In this document: positions 4,571-62,293 of the stretch, in pieces
How positions within the stretch are numbered: the first letter of the stretch is position 1
Layout: every line of letters begins with the position of its first letter
DNA from: a virus
Strand: one strand, 5' to 3'
Virus record (IMG/VR): IMGVR_UViG_3300042691_046511
Location: 1-62,293 of that record
Length of the DNA: 62,293 nt
Program-made: the position numbers and the translations under genes
The notes under the pieces: model-generated
What the model saw: the letters and a program-made list of their open reading frames with translations, nothing else
Database searches by the model: none
Told to the model about the DNA's origin: nothing

Positions 4571-5077
4571 GTGCCCCCGCAGGACACGCTCCGCACGCCT
4601 ACCCTCGGCCGTGCTATCAAGGCACAGCGCGAAGCGCGAAAGCGCCGGAGCCGCGAGCCTGCCGCTTGGTCCCTTGACGCCGTGGCCAAGCGCGCCGGGA
4701 TCGGATCGCGCTCGACGCTGAAGAACTACGAGGATGGTCGCCAGCCATCGCTTCGCGTGCTCTGGCGTCTCTGCCAAGTCCTGGACGCAGACATCGAAGC
4801 GCTCGTCACCGCGATGCTCGTCGATGCCACCGCCGGCGAGTTTCACCCATCGCGTGCAGCAGCCACAGTCACTCGCGTCGAGTCACCACGAGCGGCCGCC
4901 CTCCTTGATGCGTTCGAGCAGTGGGACGATGAGCGTCAACTCGCGTTCTTGACGGTGGCCGACGTGAGACCACAACAGCATGCAGTTCAAACAGGACCAG
5001 ACCGAACGCCCGACGCTCCTCAAGTGGAAGCTCGCGCAATAGGCGCGCGAGGTAGAAAACGTTCTCGAACGAGCTGA
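4571..5077 (+). CDS. Putative phage repressor with N-terminal helix-turn-helix (168 aa)
   Basis: The frame begins at the GTG at 4571. A GTG at 4541 in the same frame is possible but would add ten residues across an operator repeat. The N-terminal ~80 residues contain a C1/Cro-type helix-turn-helix (SLDAVAKRAGIGSRSTLKNYEDGRQPS). The rest is poorly conserved and I see no LexA-type protease domain. No ribosome site precedes it; TAGACT at 4557-4562 is a possible -10 for a leaderless transcript. Being divergent from the Cro-like gene and upstream of the integrase, it is the best candidate for the lysogeny repressor. Confidence 0.65.
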   Translation: MPPQDTLRTPTLGRAIKAQREARKRRSREPAAWSLDAVAKRAGIGSRSTLKNYEDGRQPSLRVLWRLCQVLDADIEALVTAMLVDATAGEFHPSRAAATVTRVESPRAAALLDAFEQWDDERQLAFLTVADVRPQQHAVQTGPDRTPDAPQVEARAIGARGRKRSRTS

Positions 5078-8357: not shown

Positions 8358-9932
8358 GACCGGTTTTAGGGTCTCGGTAACCGAGCCGGCGGTCCGGAGC
8401 AGATCGGCGCCGACTCCAGCAGCCCGGAGGGCCTCCGTCGACACCCCAGAGACCCGGAGGCTCTCGGACACAATCAGGAGGAGCGAGATCGTCGGCAGGC
8501 CCGTCTGGATGACCGTCGGGGGTGGGCCGACCAACGCTAGGGCACTCTGAGGCGGCGTGGTGGTCGCCTGGAGCGACGGCGCGGCCGTGCCGATCGCGAG
8601 CGCGTGGGCACTCACCGACAGCGTGAGCACAAGACGAGGCGCCAGCCCAGTGAGCCCGAGACTCGCGGTGCCCAACGTCAGCGTTTGCGTCAACGCCCCT
8701 ACTGGGCCAGTCAACGCCAGCGCGCCGACGGCGGGAACCCGCCGCACGTCGTCCACGAGCACGCTCACACCGCCGGCGAGCGCGAGCGTCCCGAGTGGCA
8801 CCTGGAGACCAGCTACCAGGCTCGGCGCCTGACCGGTAACCACGAGCACGCCAGCCGGCGCCGCGAGCGTGTCGCGGAGCGTCGCCGGAGCCCCGACCAT
8901 GGCGAGTGGCGCCGGCCCTGGCGAGAGGCCGGATGTCAGGACCAGACTGGGTGTCAGGCCCGCGATCGCGATCGCGCCGGGTGGGACCGTCAGCGCCTCG
9001 ACGAGACTGTGGGCGTGGCCGACCACCTGGAGCGCGCCAGCGGGCGGCGACACGGTACCCTGCGTCGCGAGAGCAGGAGCCAGTCCCGTGAGGGTCAGCG
9101 TGCCGGCAGGCACGGGGAGCGTCGCCGGTCCGGTCGGCGCGACGCCGTTCAGTGTCAGCGCTGCTGCGGCTGGGATCAGCGCGAGCGATAACGTCGGCGC
9201 GGCGCCTGACACGGCCAGCGCGGCGGACGGGGGCGACACGCTCGTCGCCAGCGCTGGGCTCACCGCGCCGAGCTGGAGCGCCCCGCTGGGCGTCGAAAGC
9301 TGCGCCTGGAGCGCGGCCACCGGGCCCGTCAGGCCCAGCGTCCCAACCGCGGGCGACAGGGTCGTCACGCCGCCCAGGGATGGCGCTGGGCCAGTCAGGG
9401 CGAGCGTACCCGCTGGGACCGGTAGGGTCTGACCCAGGGCGGGCGCTTGGCCCGCCATCGCCACGGTTCCCAGTCCTGGTGTGACGACCTGCAGCAGTGC
9501 GCCCGGAACCCCTGAGAACGTCAGTGCCCCAACCGTCGGCCTGAGGTCGTCGGTCAACCGAGCGGTTGCCCCAGCGATCGTGAGGCTGCCGATACCTGGC
9601 GGCGTCGTGACGATGAGACGCGACGCCTGTCCGGTGGCGACGATCGTGCCGGCCGGGACGACGAGCGCTTCGTCGAGCCGCGAAACGGGACTAGTGATCG
9701 CCAGCGCCGCGGCGGGCGGAACCACCGTGGTCGCGATCTGGATCGTCGGCGCCAGGCCGGTGAGAGTGAGAGCGGCGGCCGCCGGCGTCGTCGCAAGAAT
9801 GAGCGCGGCGGCGGCCCCAACAAAAGTTAGGGCCCCCTGGGTCGGAGACAGGCTGCCACCACTGCTTGGCGGGACAGTGATCCCGCCGATCCCTCCAGGC
9901 CCGCCGATTCCACCGCCGCCACCGACTGGCAT
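8355..9932 (-). CDS. Repeat-rich structural protein with ~22 copies of a ~20-residue motif (525 aa)
   Basis: I chose the ATG at 9932 over a TTG at 9941. After a glycine-rich N terminus, about 22 diverged copies of a ~20-residue unit follow to about residue 480. The unit reads roughly P-A-G-x-L-x-L-T-G-x-A-P-x-L. The C terminus carries a second short repeat built on (S/T)E-x-L-R-x-x-G. Similar LTLTGYAP-type repeats occur in phage structural proteins, so a beta-rich solenoid or tail-associated fibre is likely. It is the last gene of the long leftward transcript, next to attP. Function is inferred from position. Confidence 0.8.
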   Translation of the reverse strand: MPVGGGGGIGGPGGIGGITVPPSSGGSLSPTQGALTFVGAAAALILATTPAAAALTLTGLAPTIQIATTVVPPAAALAITSPVSRLDEALVVPAGTIVATGQASRLIVTTPPGIGSLTIAGATARLTDDLRPTVGALTFSGVPGALLQVVTPGLGTVAMAGQAPALGQTLPVPAGTLALTGPAPSLGGVTTLSPAVGTLGLTGPVAALQAQLSTPSGALQLGAVSPALATSVSPPSAALAVSGAAPTLSLALIPAAAALTLNGVAPTGPATLPVPAGTLTLTGLAPALATQGTVSPPAGALQVVGHAHSLVEALTVPPGAIAIAGLTPSLVLTSGLSPGPAPLAMVGAPATLRDTLAAPAGVLVVTGQAPSLVAGLQVPLGTLALAGGVSVLVDDVRRVPAVGALALTGPVGALTQTLTLGTASLGLTGLAPRLVLTLSVSAHALAIGTAAPSLQATTTPPQSALALVGPPPTVIQTGLPTISLLLIVSESLRVSGVSTEALRAAGVGADLLRTAGSVTETLKPV

Positions 9933-37169: not shown

Positions 37170-39764
37170 TTACGGGACGATGCCGCCGGCGAAGCCGCGG
37201 TAGTCGAGCACCGCGCCGCCGTAGACGTGCCGGAGCTTGTAGGTGATCTGGTCGTTCGAGAAGAGCGAGCCGACGTTCGGCTGGTCCTGCACGAAGAGCT
37301 CGGGCTCTTCCTTGCCGCCCCAGAACCCGATTTCGATCATCGGTGTCTGGCTGATGTCGGTCGTCAGCCAGTAGTTGTTCGTGTCGGTCCAGTAGTCGAC
37401 AACGCGGGCCTCGATGCCGACCTTCTGGACGAAGTTCCCGGCGGCGGGCTCGGCCGTCGTGCGGACGTTGCTGTCCGGCAGCGCCTTGGCCGACATCGTG
37501 AGCTGGAAGGCCAGCTCTTCGAGTTCGGTCGGCACCCAGAGGTACTTCGCCGACAAGCCGAGGCGTTTGCCGTTCGACATGTCGGTCTGCGTCTTGATGC
37601 GGGTGCGCAGGGTGATGAGCTCCGCCGACGACAGCGCGGTCGTCGAGATGTTGTTGCCGTGCCCGGCGGCCGCCAGCGCCACTGCGTCGTAGACCACGGC
37701 GTTCGTGCGCATGAAGTCGAACACGAACTCGTAGAGCGTCTGGCTGGCGGCGCGGGCGAGGCGCTGCGGGATCCGACGGATGGCGCCGACGTCGTCGTTG
37801 GCGATCATCTCGATCGTGACCTGCTCGGTGCCGCCGCGCTTGGCCGGCGCGTAGGTGGCTTCCTCGTCCGACGGGCTGGCCATCGAGGGGTACGGCGCCC
37901 CCTGGCCCACGGTCGCCAGATTGGGATAGCCGCCGAACCGCATGCGGCGCTGAGTCCGGAAGTCGCTGACCGGGACGACGTCGGCGATGGTGCCGCGCCA
38001 CTGCGCCTGGCTGGCCAGCTGATACTCGGCCACCATCCGGCGCGTGATGCTGTCGCCCAGGATCTGGTCGAACGACGTCGAGTCGAGCGCTTCGGTGAGC
38101 CGCGTGGCCTCGCGGAGCTGCCCGGTGACTTGGCTGTCCCCGGTGAAGTCGACGTAGAGCCCGCGGAACGAGGTGAGCTTCGGATTCGGGAGCAGCTTGA
38201 CGCCGCCGCCGTCCTGCTTCACGCCGAAGAAGGCGTCGAAGGCCTCGACCAACTGGTCGCGCCGCGTCTTCGTGATCTCGATGCGTGAGAGGCCTGGCGC
38301 GGGCAGCATGACCTTCGACTCGACGAGGGCGCCGACGACCTCGACCTGTTCGGCGATCGCCGCGGTGATGTCGTCCTTCGAGGGGAGGCCGGTCCGCGCT
38401 TTGGCCTCGTGCAGCGTCTTGCTGAACCGCTTGCGGAGATGGCCCTTGACGGCGTCCGGCAGGCTGCAGCCCGCCAACGCCGCCTCGAGGAAGTGGGTCA
38501 GGCCGTCGCGGCGCATCTCCAGCAGCTCGGCCTCCTCGAGGGTGACCGTCGGCCCGACCTGCGTCGCCCCGGCGGGCGGCTGAGGCGCGGGTGCGGCGGC
38601 GACTGGCGGGGCCTTGATCGCCTCGGCGTGGATCGCGATCACGGCCTCGGCCGTGGGCGTGGCGCCGAGCGCCTGGAGTTTGGCAATCAGGTCGGCGCGG
38701 CCGCTGGCCGTGATGGCTTCGATCAACGACTGGAGCATGGTCAGGTCCTCGTGCAGGGGGGAGTCACTGGCCACCAACCGAAGCACCCGCCCTCCCGCAG
38801 CGGGGTTCGTGACGAAATCCACGGAGGTCACCTTCGTGATGCGCGTGACGTCATGAAATGGGCCGGACGGGCCCATGACGGCCGTCGCCTCGCCTTCGGC
38901 GACGTGCGACAGCCCGAACAGATCGACCTGGCCTTCCTGCCAGGCATCGAGCAGCGCTTCGCGCACTTCGGGCTTTGTCACGACGGCCGTGCCCGCGATC
39001 CCGAAGCGCATCCCGGCGCCGGTCGCATCCTCGGCCTCGTGTGCGGTGGAGAGCAGCACGGGCTTTGGGTCGGTGATGAAGCCGGCGATGTCCTTGACGG
39101 AGCGCCCAAAACGCCGCGCGCTTTCCTCGTGGTCGAGATACATGCGCGCGCCGCGGTAGAGATCGACCGCTTCCCGGAGCGCCTTCCGCCCGTAGTTCTT
39201 CCGGTTGGAGGACATGCCCTCCTGGATGAGAAGAACGTTCCAGCGCTTCCCGGTGGGCGTCGTCGCGCCAGCCTCTTCGATCGGGCCGAACACCTGGCCG
39301 TGGGCGTCCTCGCCTTCCTTCAGCGGCACATAGGCGACCTTGACCTGCGTGGATGTGTCGCCCAGGCTGACCGTGCCGTCGTCGCCGGCGGTGTAGGTGA
39401 CTTTCCAGAGGCTGTCGCGCTTGCCGGAGGCGCCGCTCTTCCGGACGATGACGTAGTCGTCGAAGACGACCTCGACGTAGCAGTACTCCCCGGGCCCGGC
39501 GCTGTACGCCTTCTGCACCGCGTTGCGGACGGCGCTCATGCGATCGTCGAGGCTCGTCTCGGCCCCTTCGACCATGGAGCGATTGCGTGGGCGCGCGGGT
39601 AGTGGTTCGGCCGGTGTCGTCGCAGCGGCGACCGCCTCGGCGAGCTGCACGAACGACACGGCCGACTCCCCGGTGTCCTGGCGAACGGTCGCCGATTGGG
39701 CGGCCTCGTCGAGGGCGACGATGGTGCCGAGCGTCGGGATGACCTGGCCGAGCGTGAAGCGCAT
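37170..39764 (-). CDS. Prohead protease-major capsid fusion (864 aa)
   Basis: The ATG at 39764 has an AGGGG site. Residues ~170-335 carry protease features: RMYLDHEESARRFGRS (His212), VDLFGLSHVA (Ser286) and VTSVDFVTNPAAGG. They fit a serine-type prohead protease. A helical region (~335-480) could be a scaffold-like delta domain. Residues ~480-864 look like an HK97-fold major capsid protein (RRIPQRLARAASQTLYEFVFDF, EELAFQL, LRHVYGGAVLDYRGFAGG). Separate protease and capsid genes are absent, so one polyprotein probably matures itself. Confidence 0.8.
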   Translation of the reverse strand: MRFTLGQVIPTLGTIVALDEAAQSATVRQDTGESAVSFVQLAEAVAAATTPAEPLPARPRNRSMVEGAETSLDDRMSAVRNAVQKAYSAGPGEYCYVEVVFDDYVIVRKSGASGKRDSLWKVTYTAGDDGTVSLGDTSTQVKVAYVPLKEGEDAHGQVFGPIEEAGATTPTGKRWNVLLIQEGMSSNRKNYGRKALREAVDLYRGARMYLDHEESARRFGRSVKDIAGFITDPKPVLLSTAHEAEDATGAGMRFGIAGTAVVTKPEVREALLDAWQEGQVDLFGLSHVAEGEATAVMGPSGPFHDVTRITKVTSVDFVTNPAAGGRVLRLVASDSPLHEDLTMLQSLIEAITASGRADLIAKLQALGATPTAEAVIAIHAEAIKAPPVAAAPAPQPPAGATQVGPTVTLEEAELLEMRRDGLTHFLEAALAGCSLPDAVKGHLRKRFSKTLHEAKARTGLPSKDDITAAIAEQVEVVGALVESKVMLPAPGLSRIEITKTRRDQLVEAFDAFFGVKQDGGGVKLLPNPKLTSFRGLYVDFTGDSQVTGQLREATRLTEALDSTSFDQILGDSITRRMVAEYQLASQAQWRGTIADVVPVSDFRTQRRMRFGGYPNLATVGQGAPYPSMASPSDEEATYAPAKRGGTEQVTIEMIANDDVGAIRRIPQRLARAASQTLYEFVFDFMRTNAVVYDAVALAAAGHGNNISTTALSSAELITLRTRIKTQTDMSNGKRLGLSAKYLWVPTELEELAFQLTMSAKALPDSNVRTTAEPAAGNFVQKVGIEARVVDYWTDTNNYWLTTDISQTPMIEIGFWGGKEEPELFVQDQPNVGSLFSNDQITYKLRHVYGGAVLDYRGFAGGIVP

Positions 39765-39783
39765 GCGCCCCTGACAAGCAAAT

Positions 39784-39821
39784 GGGCCGGGCACTCCCCG
39801 CTCTGGGAAGTGCGCCGGCCC
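39784..39821. terminator. Strong hairpin upstream of the capsid gene
   Basis: GGGCCGG (39784-39790) pairs with CCGGCCC (39815-39821), with inner CACT/AGTG and CCC/GGG pairings. The following bases on the minus strand (ATTTGCTTG) are only weakly U-rich. It may be a partial terminator, an mRNA processing site or a stabiliser of the capsid message. Confidence 0.45.
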
Positions 39822-39864: not shown

Positions 39865-40062
39865 TTAGGTTGTGCCCGCGGTCACCGCGGGATCGATCAC
39901 TGGCAGTTGGTCTGGACGATACGAGCGGTCGACGTGCACCATCTCGATGCGCCCTCGCTGCACCGAGACCGTCAGCTTGGCGAACGTGTCATCACGCGCG
40001 AGGAGCGTGTCGAGGAACGCCAGGAACCGATCGCGGTCGACCCGTACCACCGTTGTCGGCAT
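39865..40062 (-). CDS. Hypothetical protein (65 aa)
   Basis: The ATG at 40062 lies ten bases after the sigma-like gene. The product is compact and charged (TTVVRVDRDRFLAFLDTLL... KLTVSVQRGRIEMVHVD). It could be a small partner of the sigma-like protein, but there is no direct evidence. Confidence 0.6.
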   Translation of the reverse strand: MPTTVVRVDRDRFLAFLDTLLARDDTFAKLTVSVQRGRIEMVHVDRSYRPDQLPVIDPAVTAGTT

Positions 40063-40072
40063 CGTGGCCTGA

Positions 40073-40645
40073 TCACGCGAAGGTGGGGTCACTCGTCACC
40101 AGATCGCGCAACCGTTGCCGGGCGCGGGTCTGGGTGTTCTTCCTTGTTCGTTGGACGGGCGTCCCGTCAAGGGTGTCCCTCATGACGGCGGCCTGGGCCG
40201 GACGGAGGCGCTCCACCAGCCCGCGCAACGCCACGGCGCGCTCCTGGCGCACGACCTCCTCGTGTTGCGTCGCGAGCGCCGCCTGGTCGGGAGCTTCCAC
40301 GAGGACATCCGTGGGGAATTCCCCCGCGTCCGGGTAGGGCCCGCTGCGCCGAATCCCGCCTGGGCGGCGCTCCAGAAGCACGCGGTGCACATGCTCTTGT
40401 CGGCGTTCCGCGCGCCAGTGATCCCGGGCGGCGTTCACCGTCATCCGGTACAGCCACGTGGTGATCCCGGAGGTGCCCCGGAATCCCCGGAGGCTCCGGC
40501 ACACGTGCACGCCGACCGTTTGGACGATGTCGGGGACCGCGTCAGGCGCGCTGCTATGGCGACGGGCCACGGTCGCGACGAAGTCCGCATGGGCGGCAAA
40601 CACGTCGCCCACATGCTCGGCTTCGGCTTCGGTCAATGGCGTCAT
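40073..40645 (-). CDS. ECF-like sigma factor (190 aa)
   Basis: Region 2 is clear at ~residues 20-80: PDIVQTVGVHV, then LRGFRGTSGITTWLYRMTVNAARDHWR, the -10 recognition signature of ECF sigma factors. Region 4 (~147-185, LRPAQAAVMRDTLDG... KNTQTRARQRLRDL) is present but lacks the usual E-I-A-x-x-L helix, as if about eight residues were lost. A Pro/Arg-rich linker connects them. It lies inside the head operon and may direct late transcription. Target promoters are unknown. Confidence 0.75.
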   Translation of the reverse strand: MTPLTEAEAEHVGDVFAAHADFVATVARRHSSAPDAVPDIVQTVGVHVCRSLRGFRGTSGITTWLYRMTVNAARDHWRAERRQEHVHRVLLERRPGGIRRSGPYPDAGEFPTDVLVEAPDQAALATQHEEVVRQERAVALRGLVERLRPAQAAVMRDTLDGTPVQRTRKNTQTRARQRLRDLVTSDPTFA

Positions 40646-40677: not shown

Positions 40678-41199
40678 CTAGGCCGTGTCGCGCGCTCGGC
40701 GCAGGTACCCACCGGCGTGACGATGGCTGGTGGCCGTGATGGCGCCGATGACGGCAGCCTCAGGCAAGCCCTGATCCTCGGGGAGGGGCGTGGATTCGAT
40801 CTGCTTCGTGACCGGGTTCGTGCGGAAGGCCCGGAAGAGGGCGCGCAGGCGTTCCTCGGTGTCGGCATCGAGTGACCCGTCCGAGAACATCGTGAGCTTC
40901 AGGCCCCCGGCCGTGACCAGGGAGACCGCGTCGAGGCGCCCGTCCTTGCGGCTGCCTGGGTAGAACCGCCACGCGTCGAGCTCTCGGGGCCGTGTGTCCA
41001 TGCGCGGATCGACGTTGAAGCGCTTGCAGGCGTCGAGCAGCAAGTTGAGACTGGTGTCCGACCGCAGCCCCAGCGCTTCCGGCATCAGGTCCTCGACCGG
41101 TGCGTCGTCGGTCATATCCCCGGGGTCGATCGGTGGGGCCTCAGGTGCGTCAGGGTCGACGCGAGGCGGCTTCTCGCTCTCGGCGGGCTTCTTGGCCAT
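40678..41199 (-). CDS. Hypothetical head-region protein (173 aa)
   Basis: The ATG at 41199 has a GAGGAG site 11 nt upstream. An acidic, Pro-rich N terminus (PDAPEAPPIDPGD) is followed by an ordered alpha/beta part (DAWRFYPGSRKDGRLDAVSLVTAGGLKLTMFSDG). No family is recognised. Confidence 0.65.
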   Translation of the reverse strand: MAKKPAESEKPPRVDPDAPEAPPIDPGDMTDDAPVEDLMPEALGLRSDTSLNLLLDACKRFNVDPRMDTRPRELDAWRFYPGSRKDGRLDAVSLVTAGGLKLTMFSDGSLDADTEERLRALFRAFRTNPVTKQIESTPLPEDQGLPEAAVIGAITATSHRHAGGYLRRARDTA

Positions 41200-41472: not shown

Positions 41473-41501
41473 AGTATACGCCTATCGCCAGCCCTTGCCG
41501 A
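41473..41501 (-). promoter_or_regulatory. Putative promoter inside the end of the MuF gene
   Basis: On the minus strand TCGGCA (41496-41501) and TATACT (41473-41478) are separated by 17 nt. The start site would fall at or beside the ATG at 41466, giving a leaderless message for the small downstream gene. Confidence 0.4.
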
Positions 41502-43245
41502 CGAAGAGTGCGTCGAGGGCGTTGGCAATGGCGGTGAAGTCGTCGGCCGCCCACTGCCGCGGGTACGGGTCCCAGCCGTTGTCGATGTCGCGGAGCTTCT
41601 TGGCGAGCTCGACCACCCCGATTGGATGCTGCGATCGCAGCGCGATGTACTGCGCGTAGGACCGAGCGAACAACTCTTCCACCTCGAGCAGATAGTCGAT
41701 GTGGTCGATCCCAACCTCCACGGGGCGCGCCGTCGGTTGGTCGTGCCAGCGCCGGAGGGTCTGGACGGCCTGGCTCGCCTCGATGGCATCACGCCACGTG
41801 GCGAGTGCTGGGTCGCGGCCCGACGTGGCCATGACGCCATTGCGGCCGAGGCCCAGGTGGTCGAGCCAATGTCCCGTCTCGTGCCAGAAGGTGAGGTGCG
41901 GATGCGTCCGGAGCCCGGGCGGCGTCAGGACCATCATCGTGCCGTCCTTGGCATACCCGCCCAGATGCCGTGGGCCTAGATTGACGAAGCGCAGCGGGAG
42001 CGGTCGCAGGGGGCCGTCGCCATGCACGGCGTCCACCGCGTTCATCGCCGACCTCGCGGTGTTCCAGCGCCTGCCCGCCGGGATCGTCAGCTTCTGGGCC
42101 ACGGAACTGTCGGCATCGCGCACCGGCACGATGCGGCTCTGTGGATACCGTCGACGCGACGGTCTGGCGGAGGCGATGGGCGGGGCCGGCACGGCGGGGG
42201 CCGCTGGCGCCGGAGGGAGCACGGGCGGAGGCGACGGCGGGACGGGCTTCCCCAGCGCGAAGGCGACCTGCGCCCGTGAGAACTCCGCGAACCGAGCGAC
42301 GTCCACGTCGACCACGGCGTGACAGCGACAGAGGATGGTCGAGGCGGCGGCCAGTCGACCTTCGGGGGTCGTGAGCGGGTCGATCGGGTAGCGGAGCGCC
42401 GCCACGCCGATCCGCTTGGGCCCAGCCGTCCCCCGCTCGTCGTAGACGGAGACCTGAAACCGGTCGGCGATCGGGATGCCCTTCCCGCGCGCGTACGTCT
42501 GGCTCGCCTCGCGGTGCCCGAGCCGTGTGCGGCGATCGTTGGTGGACTTCCACGCCTTCTTCAAGAACGGGAAGTCCTTGGCCAGTCCGACCATGCGTTC
42601 GAACGTGGCGGCCGAGAACACGCGCCCGAGCTCGGTGCGCACGATCCGCTCCGCGCGGTACGCCGCCTGGTCGAACCCCTGCTCGGCGATCTGCCGCTGC
42701 AGTCGCTGCAGCTCCGCCATCTTGGACTCGCCGGCGGTGGCCACGCGCCGGATGCCCTGACGAATGTCGGTGGCGAACTGCCGCATGGGCGGCGAGAGCA
42801 GGTCCTCGGTGTTGCCTTCGGCCGCTCGCACGAGCACATCGTCCGTCCCCCGGAATTGCGAGGGCAACGTGAGTTGGAGCGCGCGCACCGGTTGCTCGGC
42901 CGCCTGCGCACCCAATCGGGCGGCCGCGGCATAGGGCCGTCCGGTGCTGGCGAAAATCTCGACCGTGGCCTCGGCGATACGCTGGTCGACCTCGCGAAGG
43001 AGCCGATCGGCCGTGCCAGGCGTCGCGTTCAGGAGGTCCGGGAGGAGTGCCAGCAGATCCCGCTTGAGGCGCTGCAAGCGGAGCAAGACGGCCGCGGCGG
43101 TCTCGCCCTCGAGTCGCCGGAAATCACGCACGAGCGCCGTGGCGGCAGACACGGCCCGGCGCACGCGACGTGCCGGACCGTCGTCTTCGGTGAGGTCGAT
43201 GAGCGCCGGCCAGCGGACGGCGATCGGCGCCAGATCGAGCGCCAT
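41482..43245 (-). CDS. MuF-type minor head protein with C-terminal zinc metallopeptidase domain (587 aa)
   Basis: The N-terminal ~310 residues match Mu gpF-like minor head proteins (RAERIVRTELGRVFSAATFERM, KKAWKSTNDRRTRLGHREA, STILCRCHAVVDV). A Pro/Ala linker follows (~320-365). The C-terminal ~200 residues contain FWHETGHWLDHLG, a HExxH zinc site starting at His455, and a likely third ligand in EVEELFARSYAQYIA near Glu523. MuF proteins with C-terminal toxin-like enzymes are known. The peptidase may be delivered into the host or act in head maturation. Confidence 0.85.
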   Translation of the reverse strand: MALDLAPIAVRWPALIDLTEDDGPARRVRRAVSAATALVRDFRRLEGETAAAVLLRLQRLKRDLLALLPDLLNATPGTADRLLREVDQRIAEATVEIFASTGRPYAAAARLGAQAAEQPVRALQLTLPSQFRGTDDVLVRAAEGNTEDLLSPPMRQFATDIRQGIRRVATAGESKMAELQRLQRQIAEQGFDQAAYRAERIVRTELGRVFSAATFERMVGLAKDFPFLKKAWKSTNDRRTRLGHREASQTYARGKGIPIADRFQVSVYDERGTAGPKRIGVAALRYPIDPLTTPEGRLAAASTILCRCHAVVDVDVARFAEFSRAQVAFALGKPVPPSPPPVLPPAPAAPAVPAPPIASARPSRRRYPQSRIVPVRDADSSVAQKLTIPAGRRWNTARSAMNAVDAVHGDGPLRPLPLRFVNLGPRHLGGYAKDGTMMVLTPPGLRTHPHLTFWHETGHWLDHLGLGRNGVMATSGRDPALATWRDAIEASQAVQTLRRWHDQPTARPVEVGIDHIDYLLEVEELFARSYAQYIALRSQHPIGVVELAKKLRDIDNGWDPYPRQWAADDFTAIANALDALFVGKGWR

Positions 43246-43251
43246 CGTCCG

Positions 43252-44799
43252 TCACGCGGCCGCGCGCGCGTCGTCGTCGATCCCGTCCGGGTCGTCCTCA
43301 GGATCAGGCACCGGCGGATTCGTGGGGCCACGCTTGGCGCGGAGCGCCGCCACGCCTGCCGCGATGTCGTCGGCCTTCTCTTGGCGGGACTCGGCGTCCT
43401 TCTCGGCGTCCGCTAGGATGGTGGAGGCGTTCGTCTCGACGCCCAGGTGCTTCAGGAGCGCCACGATGGTGGTGGCAGCCACTTGCTTGCTGGCGGTGCC
43501 GTTGGCCATCGCCGTGTCGAACGCCGAAACCACCTGCGCGAAGACCTGGCCGACGCGCGACACGTCCTTCGCCTGAATCTCGGGCATGCGGACCTTGAAC
43601 CCGAGATTGGCCTCGCGAAAGAGCGCGGGATTGCGCGTGGTCGCCTGCTCCACGGCGTAGCGCACGATGGTCTCGAGGAAGGCGCGATACTCGATCTGTC
43701 GCGACTGCGGGGTGCGCAGCATCACGTCGTTCTGGCCTTCGATCGTCGCCTGGTTCGAATCGGTGAAGCCGAAGTAACTCAGCGGGAAGCCGAACGAGCC
43801 GATGATGTGCGTCAGGATCATCCGGGCCGCCGCGGAGCGATCGGTCGCCTTCAGATCCGGCGTGCGCGGCTCCAACGTCTCTTTCTCGTTGTGCCCAAAG
43901 ACGGTCCCAGGGCGCGGGGTTGGCAGCGCTTTTACTTTCGAGGCGATGTCCTGGGCGGACGCCCCGTCGATCTTGTAGTCCCACACGAACGACGACTGCA
44001 GCCCGATGCGCTCGACCTCCGCGATCATGAACGAGTCGTACATGTCGAGCCAGTCGGCAAACGCCAAGAGATCGGGCCGGCCGCGCAGGCTGTTCGGGAG
44101 CTTGTTGATCCCGAGGTAGAAGCATTCCCCTTCCAGCCGGCCGGTGGCCGGGTTCTCGTGGATGATGGCGAGGTCCTGGCGCTGCCCGTTCGCATGAGTG
44201 GGCTTCAGCCGCACGAACTCAGGCACCAGGATATTGCCGGGCGACGGCACGATCGCTTCGACCTGGACGGGGTCGAGGTAGCCGAGTTGGAGCCCGCCGG
44301 TGATCGGGTTCGTCGCGACGGGGAGAATCAGCTCCCCGGTGAGCCCGAGGGCGGTGTAGAACTCGCGGCCGCGGGTCTGCAACTGGTTCACACGGCTGGT
44401 CCACGCCTTGTCGATCACGGCCTGAATCCGGGGGTCTTCGGCCTCGACGGTGATGCCCTGGCCGACAACGAGGTCGACGAGCAGCCCGATCAAGCGTTTG
44501 GCGAGCGGGTTTTGTTCGTAGAGGAACCACGCGATCTCTATCGCGCGCTCCTGCGCCAGGGGCGTCAGGTCCCGGTGGTGCATCTTGACGCCGGTGGTCA
44601 GGCGTCGATACAACCCGTCGTCGGGGTCGCCGCCGAAGGTGCCGGTGAGCTGGTAGCCCTCCTCCAGCCGGCGCGTGGCGGCGGCCTCGGTCGCGACCTC
44701 GCGTCGGAGCGGAAGGTCGAACAGGGGTTCTGCTGGCTGGAAGGCGGCCCCGGCGCGCGGCGTGCGCCAGGGTGCCAGAAAGCGATCGAGGAGGCCCAC
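43252..44799 (-). CDS. Portal protein (515 aa)
   Basis: I favour the GTG at 44799 (VGLLDRFLAPWRT). A GTG at 44859 would add 20 residues. The pattern of a lambda/SPP1-type portal is visible: ARAIEIAWFLYEQNPLAKRLIGLLVDLVVGQG-like helices, then DWLDMYDSFMIAEVERIGLQ and SFGFPLSYFGFTDSNQATIEGQ. It forms the dodecameric DNA channel at one capsid vertex. It lies between terminase and MuF, the usual order. Confidence 0.9.
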   Translation of the reverse strand: MGLLDRFLAPWRTPRAGAAFQPAEPLFDLPLRREVATEAAATRRLEEGYQLTGTFGGDPDDGLYRRLTTGVKMHHRDLTPLAQERAIEIAWFLYEQNPLAKRLIGLLVDLVVGQGITVEAEDPRIQAVIDKAWTSRVNQLQTRGREFYTALGLTGELILPVATNPITGGLQLGYLDPVQVEAIVPSPGNILVPEFVRLKPTHANGQRQDLAIIHENPATGRLEGECFYLGINKLPNSLRGRPDLLAFADWLDMYDSFMIAEVERIGLQSSFVWDYKIDGASAQDIASKVKALPTPRPGTVFGHNEKETLEPRTPDLKATDRSAAARMILTHIIGSFGFPLSYFGFTDSNQATIEGQNDVMLRTPQSRQIEYRAFLETIVRYAVEQATTRNPALFREANLGFKVRMPEIQAKDVSRVGQVFAQVVSAFDTAMANGTASKQVAATTIVALLKHLGVETNASTILADAEKDAESRQEKADDIAAGVAALRAKRGPTNPPVPDPEDDPDGIDDDARAAA

Positions 44800-44843
44800 G
44801 CTGTGGTGTTGGACGGGGGGGCTCGCGGGGCTGTCCCTTTGGC

Positions 44844-46421
44844 CTACGACGTGAACCACTTCCGACGCGTCAGGCCCTGGACCCGTGTTGGCGCCGGCGC
44901 TGGTGCCGTCGCCGGTTCAGGCTCAGGGCTGTCGGGCTGTCCGCGCAGGCGCCGGCGCATCGTCTGCAGGCGCTGCAGGTGGGTCGAGGCGCCCGCCTCT
45001 GGAGCGCGGACCGCGCTGGCCGCCAGACTCTGACTCGCCGCGCGCCAGGCGAGCGCACCGGCGGAGATCGTGTCTGGGAGGTGCGCGGTACTACTCCCGT
45101 CCTTCGACCCCCGGTACACGTCCTCGCGCGTGGCGTAGATGTGCTCGCTCCGCGCGGCCGCCAGCGCCGGGTTGCTGTCGTCTTCGGGCCAGACCAGCTC
45201 GCCCTTTTCGATCGCCGCGATGTACTCGGACAGCAGGTCGGCGCGGTCGCGCCCGACCATGTTGAACGGCTCCGAGTCGTGGCGCAGCATGTCGTGCACG
45301 ACCTGGCCGAGGCCCGTGTTGTCGTGCGTGCTCGTCCCGCCATACTCCGCAATGCGCGCGTCGAGGTAGCCCGCCATCGCCGGCCACGGCTCGCGCTGCG
45401 TGCGCTTCACCGCCACGACGCGCATCGGTCGGACGTCCTTCCGGATCGTGACGATGACGGTGTGGTTCACCTTCTTCGCCCAGTCGGTCCCTGTGCCGTA
45501 GACCGCGCCGTCGACCGGCGCCTCGAGCGCGACGTCCGACCGGAACGCCCCCTTCACCGCGTCGGTGTCCATGGCGCGCCCCTCGCTGCTGGGCTCCTGC
45601 AGCTCGATCTCGGTCTCCCACATGGCTGCGGTCAGGATGGCGCGCTTGCGCTCGACCTCGGCCAGCGAGAGCCAGCCGTGCGGCTCGAGATTTTCTCTGT
45701 AGCACCACTCATACACGGGATAGTTCTTCGCCGCGGCGCGCTTCAGGATCTCGGTCATCGTGCCGTCGGGATACTGGTGCGTGCTCGACAACACGACCTG
45801 GGACAGGATCCAGCCCTTCGACATCGGCTGACCGAGCGCCGAGTCGAGGATCGAGAGCTTCATCTCATCGGTTTCATCCAAACGTAAGCGCTGCGGGTGA
45901 GGCCCTCTGACGCTGGCCTGGCTGGCCATCAGCGCCACGATGCGGTTGCCCCACACGAGGCGCTGCTTCTGGCTGCCGGGCTCGTTCATCAGGGCGGACC
46001 GCGGCGCAGACGGCGCCTCCCACAGTTTGCCGATGGACTCGAGCACGCGCTTCGACTGCTCACCCGACCCGCCGAGGATGTTGACGTCGGCGCGCAACGT
46101 CAGCGCCTCGGTGACCGCCAGCGCGGAGAGCGTGAAGGACTTGCCGCCCATGCCGCGCGACGCCTTCCACACGCTGATCGGGTGGCGGGCGAAGTAGGCG
46201 TCGTGGAACGCGTCCCACGGGGTGCTGTGGTTCGTGCAGCACTGCCGGTGCGGCAGGGCGACGTTGAAGTAGTCGCGGAGGAACTTGTCGAGGGCGTCGT
46301 CGTCGGTGATGGCCGGCAGCTGGGGGCCTTCGTCGCCCTGGCGCGCGACCTCGGACGGCGGCACGAGACTCCACAGTAACTCGCGTACGCCCCGCTCGTG
46401 GGCCGTCAGGCCGTGTCTCAT
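44844..46421 (-). CDS. terL: Terminase large subunit (525 aa)
   Basis: The ATP-driven packaging motor carries a Walker A-like motif KASRGMGGKS (residues 86-95), a Walker B with LRLDETDE (Asp182-Glu183) and a C-terminal RNase H-like nuclease that begins near GTGTDWAKKVNHTV (~residue 310). The C terminus ends in a Pro-rich tail. The ATG at 46421 overlaps the small subunit stop. Confidence 0.92.
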   Translation of the reverse strand: MRHGLTAHERGVRELLWSLVPPSEVARQGDEGPQLPAITDDDALDKFLRDYFNVALPHRQCCTNHSTPWDAFHDAYFARHPISVWKASRGMGGKSFTLSALAVTEALTLRADVNILGGSGEQSKRVLESIGKLWEAPSAPRSALMNEPGSQKQRLVWGNRIVALMASQASVRGPHPQRLRLDETDEMKLSILDSALGQPMSKGWILSQVVLSSTHQYPDGTMTEILKRAAAKNYPVYEWCYRENLEPHGWLSLAEVERKRAILTAAMWETEIELQEPSSEGRAMDTDAVKGAFRSDVALEAPVDGAVYGTGTDWAKKVNHTVIVTIRKDVRPMRVVAVKRTQREPWPAMAGYLDARIAEYGGTSTHDNTGLGQVVHDMLRHDSEPFNMVGRDRADLLSEYIAAIEKGELVWPEDDSNPALAAARSEHIYATREDVYRGSKDGSSTAHLPDTISAGALAWRAASQSLAASAVRAPEAGASTHLQRLQTMRRRLRGQPDSPEPEPATAPAPAPTRVQGLTRRKWFTS

Positions 46422-61574: not shown

Positions 61575-62293
61575 GCTGCCACCACCCGTTCCACGGCAGC
61601 GATCGCTTGCAGCCGCTGCTCGAGCTGCGCCAGCAGCTCGGCCGCTTCGCGCGTCTCGAGCGCGGCCAGCTTGGCCACCACGCTGTCGCTCACGTCGACC
61701 CCAGAGAGCGCGCAGTACGCCTGCAGCTTGGCGGCCGTCGTCTTCGCGGCGGCCACCTCCGGCGCGCGCACCGCGCGGTCGGGCACGGCGACGGGTTCCA
61801 TCTCGAGATGCGAGGCCTCCGCGAACTCGGCCATGAGCTGTGCCCTGGCCAGGTCGAGGCGCCCGGCATCGCTGGCGCTGAAGCGGAATCTGGCCCTGAC
61901 TTCGTCGCCCCTGAACGACGCCGGCGTGACCTCGACCGCGCCCTCCGGCCCGCGGCGCACCACCCACGCGACCTGGTGGCCATCGAAGACGCCCTCGACA
62001 TGCCAGAGTCGCGGCAACACGATCGGGTGCGACGTCATCGACCAGCGGGTGCCGTCGTGGTCGAGCACGAGGAACCGCTTCTGCTCGACCTCGGCCCAGT
62101 CGGACGGCGCGATCGAGCCCACGTAGGTCGCGCCGTGCACGTCCTGCGCCGCGTGGATGTGGTTCAAGATCTTCGGCACGTCGGGCCCGAGCCGGTCGAG
62201 ATGCTCGGGCCGCAGGGCGATCTCGGCGCCGATGAGCGGCTGCCCCGTCGACGCGACGGCGCCGACCACGTTGGCGTGGCCGATGAAGAGCCC
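61571..62293 (-). CDS. sbcD: SbcD-like exonuclease subunit, C-terminal part (begins at 545 across the junction)
   Basis: This is the downstream portion of the metallophosphoesterase that starts at base 545. PKILNHIHAAQDVHGATYVGSIAPSDWAEVEQKRF, in parts, gives the final metal motif (NHIH in place of the usual GHIH) and the typical Y-x-G-S turn. A capping domain follows, with a helical C terminus. The last 68 bases duplicate 1-68. The protein ends at 61571, overlapping the zinc-ribbon gene. Confidence 0.92.
   Translation of the reverse strand, partial: GLFIGHANVVGAVASTGQPLIGAEIALRPEHLDRLGPDVPKILNHIHAAQDVHGATYVGSIAPSDWAEVEQKRFLVLDHDGTRWSMTSHPIVLPRLWHVEGVFDGHQVAWVVRRGPEGAVEVTPASFRGDEVRARFRFSASDAGRLDLARAQLMAEFAEASHLEMEPVAVPDRAVRAPEVAAAKTTAAKLQAYCALSGVDVSDSVVAKLAALETREAAELLAQLEQRLQAIAAVERVVAA
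62226..62293. repeat. Right copy of the 68-bp terminal overlap
   Basis: Identical to bases 1-68; see the left copy. Confidence 0.95.

Follow-up and report, generated by a model that had tools for sequence, protein, structure and literature searches.

In ECF sigma factors, region 2 binds the β' clamp helices of RNA polymerase and the melted -10 element, and region 4 binds the β flap and the -35 element. The contacts of the two regions are described in the same way for sigma-70 (PMC7892883). Among phages, the published promoters of phage ECF sigma factors have an extended -10 element and no recognizable -35 element (PMC5333181), and the resemblance of T4 gp55 to sigma is limited to domain 2, gp33 serving as a mimic of sigma region 4 (PMC2988020). 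Here we describe a phage-encoded ECF sigma-like protein in a 62,293-base viral record from IMG/VR, the whole of which we refer to as the window. An exact direct repeat of 68 bases at the two ends (1-68 and 62226-62293) suggests that the record is probably a complete genome of the circular type, and it carries an integrase gene and a ParB-like gene.

An ECF sigma-like gene in the head operon

The open reading frame at 40073..40645 (minus strand) begins with ATG and encodes an ECF sigma-like protein of 190 amino acids that is kept across a group of related phages. Its GC content by codon position (0.75/0.52/0.83) is coding-like. An earlier note on this DNA, made from the sequence alone, had called the product an ECF-like sigma factor with a well-preserved region 2, and both statements were borne out. 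Region 2 (residues 16-82; 40400..40600, minus strand) scored 46-48 bits against the cut-off of 24 of the Pfam model Sigma70_r2 (PF04542), which the window protein passed with 46.1 bits (E 4e-12), and TTWLYRMTVNAARDHW was found in the frame within this genuine domain. All eight family members scanned match the region 2 model. The window protein also passed TIGR02937, the curated model of the ECF superfamily, by a narrow margin (43.9 bits, cut-off 42.9, model positions 5-136 of 165), and the homologue in L126 did so with 57.9 bits over positions 7-162. When we searched PDB sequences with the window protein, the top matches belonged to the sigma-E family, and the family profile aligned to full-length ECF structures, namely SigL (profile positions 7-165) and M. 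tuberculosis SigE. An AlphaFold2 model built from an alignment of eight family sequences (mean pLDDT 80) gave sigma-E, sigma-H and sigma-L type structures as the leading Foldseek matches, and its region 2 can be overlaid, at about 2 Å, on the complex of sigma-E with its -10 element. The idea of an unrelated helical virion protein, which the earlier note had set against its own assignment, fails, as the leading matches in both sequence and fold are sigma factors. Judged by these matches, the product is an ECF sigma-70 protein by descent with one defining part deleted.

We found no relatives of the sigma protein when viral contigs were scanned with the single sequence, and relatives were reached in IMG/VR via the capsid gene of the locus. 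This gave nine distinct sigma-like proteins on 12 contigs, the window included, and the homologues share 30-48% alignment identity with the window protein. Every capsid relative with at least 48% identity and with the upstream side on its contig has a sigma-like gene in the same slot; the L126 member was found by a profile scan, and its contig stops short of the capsid gene. A domain search of 50 viral records matched eight, all within this phage group, and the group member L050 fell below the threshold of this search, yet aligns clearly. The sigma-like domain was absent from the distant capsid relatives (39% identity or less) among the 50 records, some of which are fragments. Hence, the sigma-like gene is not needed for this type of capsid.

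Within region 2, the core-binding motif DxxQ has its aspartate in every member and its glutamine in seven of the nine, the other two, L003 and L055, having alanine instead. Most members retain region 2.3/2.4 and the WLYR segment. In sigma-E, the flipped-out -10 base is met by an asparagine of region 2.4. Family members have N, S, H or R at this position, which may point to phage-specific -10 elements or to a weakened reading of the -10 element.

The gene lies where the earlier note had placed it, in a head operon that runs in the window from terminase through portal, MuF-like, small acidic, sigma and small genes to a protease-capsid fusion, all on the minus strand. The gene for the terminase large subunit (44844..46421) overlaps that of the portal protein (43252..44859; phrog_10963). 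The upstream anchor is a MuF-like minor head protein (41482..43245), whose C-terminal part contains an HExxH motif and which scored 25.9 bits with PF04233, under the cut-off of 29.6. It is followed by the small acidic protein (40678..41199), whose gene precedes the sigma gene in relatives, and, between the sigma and capsid genes, by a small protein of 65 amino acids (39865..40062) with a homologue in L002 and similar small proteins elsewhere. The protease-major capsid fusion (37170..39794; phrog_29592, phrog_133; PF25209) forms the downstream anchor. The order common to the group is MuF-like protein, small acidic protein, sigma, in some members a CxC protein, small protein and protease-capsid fusion; the fusion is downstream in the homologues, and the MuF-like and small acidic genes are upstream where visible.

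Some neighbours differ between members. In many relatives a small protein ending in a CxCxRVHF-like sequence is encoded just past the sigma gene (L048:4108-4458, L003:8669-9091, L126:4458-4751); neither the window nor L002 was found to have this type, and the copies that we scanned had no family match. No anti-sigma gene was recognised beside the window sigma gene. At L051:367-3090, the MuF-like head protein and an ADP-ribosyltransferase domain (PF03496, 58.7 bits) form one fusion protein, and the terminase large subunit at L129:475-2748 contains an insertion that resembles an intein (PF14890, 31.7 bits, just short of the cut-off).

A region 4 without helix 3

The earlier note had also stated that region 4 lacks its usual helix, and domain models, structure prediction and alignment agreed with this. 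Region 4 of the window protein was over the cut-off of neither PF08281 nor PF04545, and no complete helix-turn-helix was found. According to the AlphaFold2 model and the alignment, the remnant spans residues 139-183 (40097..40231, minus strand) and has 45 amino acids instead of 56. The predicted helices in this part of the protein are at 121-145, 149-159 and 166-185 (block pLDDT 71-91), so that helices 1, 2 and 4 are present and helix 3, the first of the -35-reading helix-turn-helix, is deleted. A six-residue loop takes its place (residues 160-165; 40151..40168, minus strand) and marks the deletion site in both the model and the alignment with bacterial ECF sigma factors. A second fold model, for the L126 protein, had the same helix layout at lower confidence (mean pLDDT 73.8).

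We compared the length of region 4 between fixed points of one alignment, which included 15 bacterial ECF sigma factors from a genome scan. It was 56 amino acids in all 15 of them versus 45, 48, 48, 48, 48, 49, 50 and 52 in eight phage proteins, the window protein being the shortest. Even in L126, which has the best-preserved region 4, both Pfam models aligned in two pieces with the centre absent (positions 4-26 and 37-54 of PF08281; 1-14 and 31-49 of PF04545). Eight of the nine family proteins thus have a shortened region 4 of 45-52 amino acids, and the ninth, from L002, consists of region 2 alone, its stop codon being overlapped by the next gene. A frameshift as the cause of the loss in L002 was rejected, as the other frames do not encode a region 4 and the next gene follows immediately. 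The shortened region 4 of the window protein does not stem from chance or a sequencing error, because the eight homologues in the same slot are shortened as well or, in L002, lack the region. Simple counting estimates of dN/dS between close pairs were 0.15-0.28 in region 2 and 0.40-0.54 in the part that corresponds to region 4; in L051 this 3' end overlaps the next gene. By these estimates, purifying selection on the family is clear and strongest on region 2. The C-terminal helix of the RARQRLR type is conserved and under selection.

Two relatives, L003 and L055, have small orthologous proteins (48% identical) that correspond to a stand-alone region 4 and are encoded between terminase and portal; the L003 protein scored 35.5 bits with PF04545 (cut-off 24.1). 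The stand-alone sigma-70 region 4 genes of this terminase-portal gap are at L003:4594-4872 and at L131:10101-10349 (minus strand). Based on gene content, a split sigma factor is possible in L003 and L055 and would hold for no more than some members of the group. In the window, no second region 4 gene was found anywhere with PF04545, PF08281 or a custom profile, and the overlap of terminase and portal genes leaves no room for one there. The gap in L050 is just 111 bases, so there is no region 4 gene there either. A second, complete sigma factor with regions 2 and 4 over the Pfam cut-offs is encoded upstream of the portal at L053:2390-3070, on the same contig as a shortened one. Our search for a sigma-54 DNA-binding domain gave no match.

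Promoter search and possible functions

Sigma-70-like promoters were sought between 36 and 52 kb of the window. The sole match (41473..41501, minus strand), upstream of the gene group of the acidic protein and sigma, is not convincing, as one match compares with 0.8 expected and is no better than chance. The word GGAAC, which resembles an ECF -35 element, is frequent on either strand (52 and 68 copies), and there is a single copy of the pre-hairpin motif CGGAGAAACC; we therefore accepted neither as a sign of promoters. A GC-rich hairpin (39784..39821, minus strand) lies just before the capsid gene, and its T tract is weak. Terminator-like hairpins ahead of the capsid gene are also present in L002 (around 2581-2625), L003 (around 9359-9412) and L048 (around 4805-4865), and a CGGAgaACC-like stretch precedes these pre-capsid hairpins. 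In these four members they could end or attenuate the upstream transcript. Most members have a GC-rich hairpin 3' of the capsid gene as well. Searches for tRNAs and Rfam elements were negative.

Since region 2 is kept and the helix-turn-helix is broken, the simplest reading is a sigma factor that is blind to the -35 element, and the precedents of phage ECF promoters (PMC5333181) and T4 gp55 (PMC2988020) make this plausible. We consider it somewhat better than an even chance that the protein is a working ECF-class phage sigma factor that is driven by domain 2, independent of the -35 element and used for phage, probably late, promoters. Region 2 would dock on the clamp helices of the host RNA polymerase and open promoters at a -10 element, perhaps an extended one. 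The -35 element would not be read because helix 3 of the helix-turn-helix is gone, and the remaining helices of region 4 may still contact the β flap. Host polymerase would thus be redirected to phage promoters, probably late in infection. The location in the structural operon suggests late synthesis, such that the protein could reinforce late transcription or act on the last genes, and in two relatives the missing half may come from the region 4 protein of the separate gene. From the domain content and gene position we infer polymerase binding, -35 independence, late phage targets and the timing of expression. The core idea of the earlier note is reasonable, with the switch to late phage promoters or host stress genes as a putative function. 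The new promoter code that it suggested is better expressed as a loss of -35 reading, the missing helix being part of the helix-turn-helix. Several points speak against a working sigma factor: no promoter motif was identified, the -10-contact residue is variable, the core-binding glutamine is replaced in L003 and L055, the L126 fold model is of lower confidence, and a sigma factor made only with the structural genes would come too late to be what turns these genes on.

The protein might instead have an anti-sigma or decoy role. It could, without initiating transcription, appropriate core polymerase or bind a host anti-sigma factor in the manner of PhyR with its sigma-like domain, and would thereby shut down host sigma use or release host ECF sigma factors. 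Retention of region 2 despite the loss of the DNA-reading helix of region 4 and the different -10-contact residues among members are consistent with such a role. We regard it as unlikely, as region 2.3/2.4 and WLYR are kept in most members and a protein that only bound core polymerase or an anti-sigma factor would not need them. Alternatively, a former sigma factor could have been repurposed to reside in the capsid or aid its assembly, perhaps being delivered with the DNA to act at once on the polymerase of the next host. The constant slot between the MuF-like and capsid genes would fit this, as would the effector-like domains of MuF-like proteins in this group (the ADP-ribosyltransferase of L051 and HExxH in the window), MuF toxins being a known phage theme (PMC5576092). 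Moreover, a proteomic study of phage SU10 detected one peptide of its ECF sigma factor (PMC4281155). However, one peptide is weak evidence, sigma factors and not structural proteins lead the matches by sequence and by fold, and the capsid relatives at 39% identity or less do without the gene; we found no literature on virion-packaged phage sigma factors with the terms tried. Cargo or assembly functions hence appear quite unlikely to us.

It is improbable that the protein is an ordinary ECF sigma factor whose altered, two-helix region 4 still reads the -35 element: the RARQRLR-type helix, conserved and under selection, speaks for it, but no member with a region 4 has kept helix 3, and L002 has no region 4. 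A decaying relic without function is highly improbable, as the shortening throughout the family and the loss in L002 are opposed by an open frame with a coding signature, a dN/dS well below 1 and retention of the gene in all close capsid relatives in which the slot is visible.

Comparison with known sigma factors

The window protein resembles group IV (ECF) sigma-70 proteins such as E. coli sigma-E and M. tuberculosis SigL and SigH in region 2, in length and in the two-domain layout without region 3. It differs from them in that the phage family lacks helix 3 of the helix-turn-helix, or in L002 the whole of region 4, and is encoded in a phage head operon. The ECF sigma factors gp36 of phiEco32 and that of phage 7-11 are likewise phage-encoded, and the promoters without a recognizable -35 element were published for them (PMC5333181). 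In contrast to the window protein, phiEco32 gp36 has by eye a full-length, helix-turn-helix-like region 4 and passes no Pfam cut-off, whereas the window protein passes Sigma70_r2. The phiEco32 map shows the gp36 gene among middle genes for DNA metabolism, and the window sigma gene is in the head operon instead. In T4 gp55, sigma similarity is restricted to domain 2 and region 4 function is lost; the L002 protein likewise consists of region 2 alone, whereas the window protein retains a remnant of region 4. T4 gp55 acts with gp33 and the gp45 clamp, and no such partner was identified here at the sequence level. It has a C-terminal clamp-binding motif, and several members of the phage family end in a DPR[FLV]-like sequence. 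The arrangement of B. subtilis SigO-RsoA, with regions 2 and 4 on separate proteins, may hold for L003 and L055, but in the window genome a second region 4 protein was not detected.

In a bolder and less likely reading, an ECF sigma factor became in this phage lineage a -35-blind domain-2 sigma factor inside the capsid operon, with region 4 encoded by a separate gene between terminase and portal in some members or lost in others to give a series of one-piece, split and single-domain forms, and the protein might even be carried in the head. The earlier proposal of phage ECF sigma factors that ignore the -35 element came from phages of the phiEco32 type, in which region 4 still appears to have its full length. 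In the present group, the helix needed for -35 reading is physically deleted throughout and one member has no region 4 at all, which makes -35 independence a prediction from structure that is open to direct testing. The group is also a compact, ready-made set of variants in which to study the minimum sigma factor and the origin of split ones.
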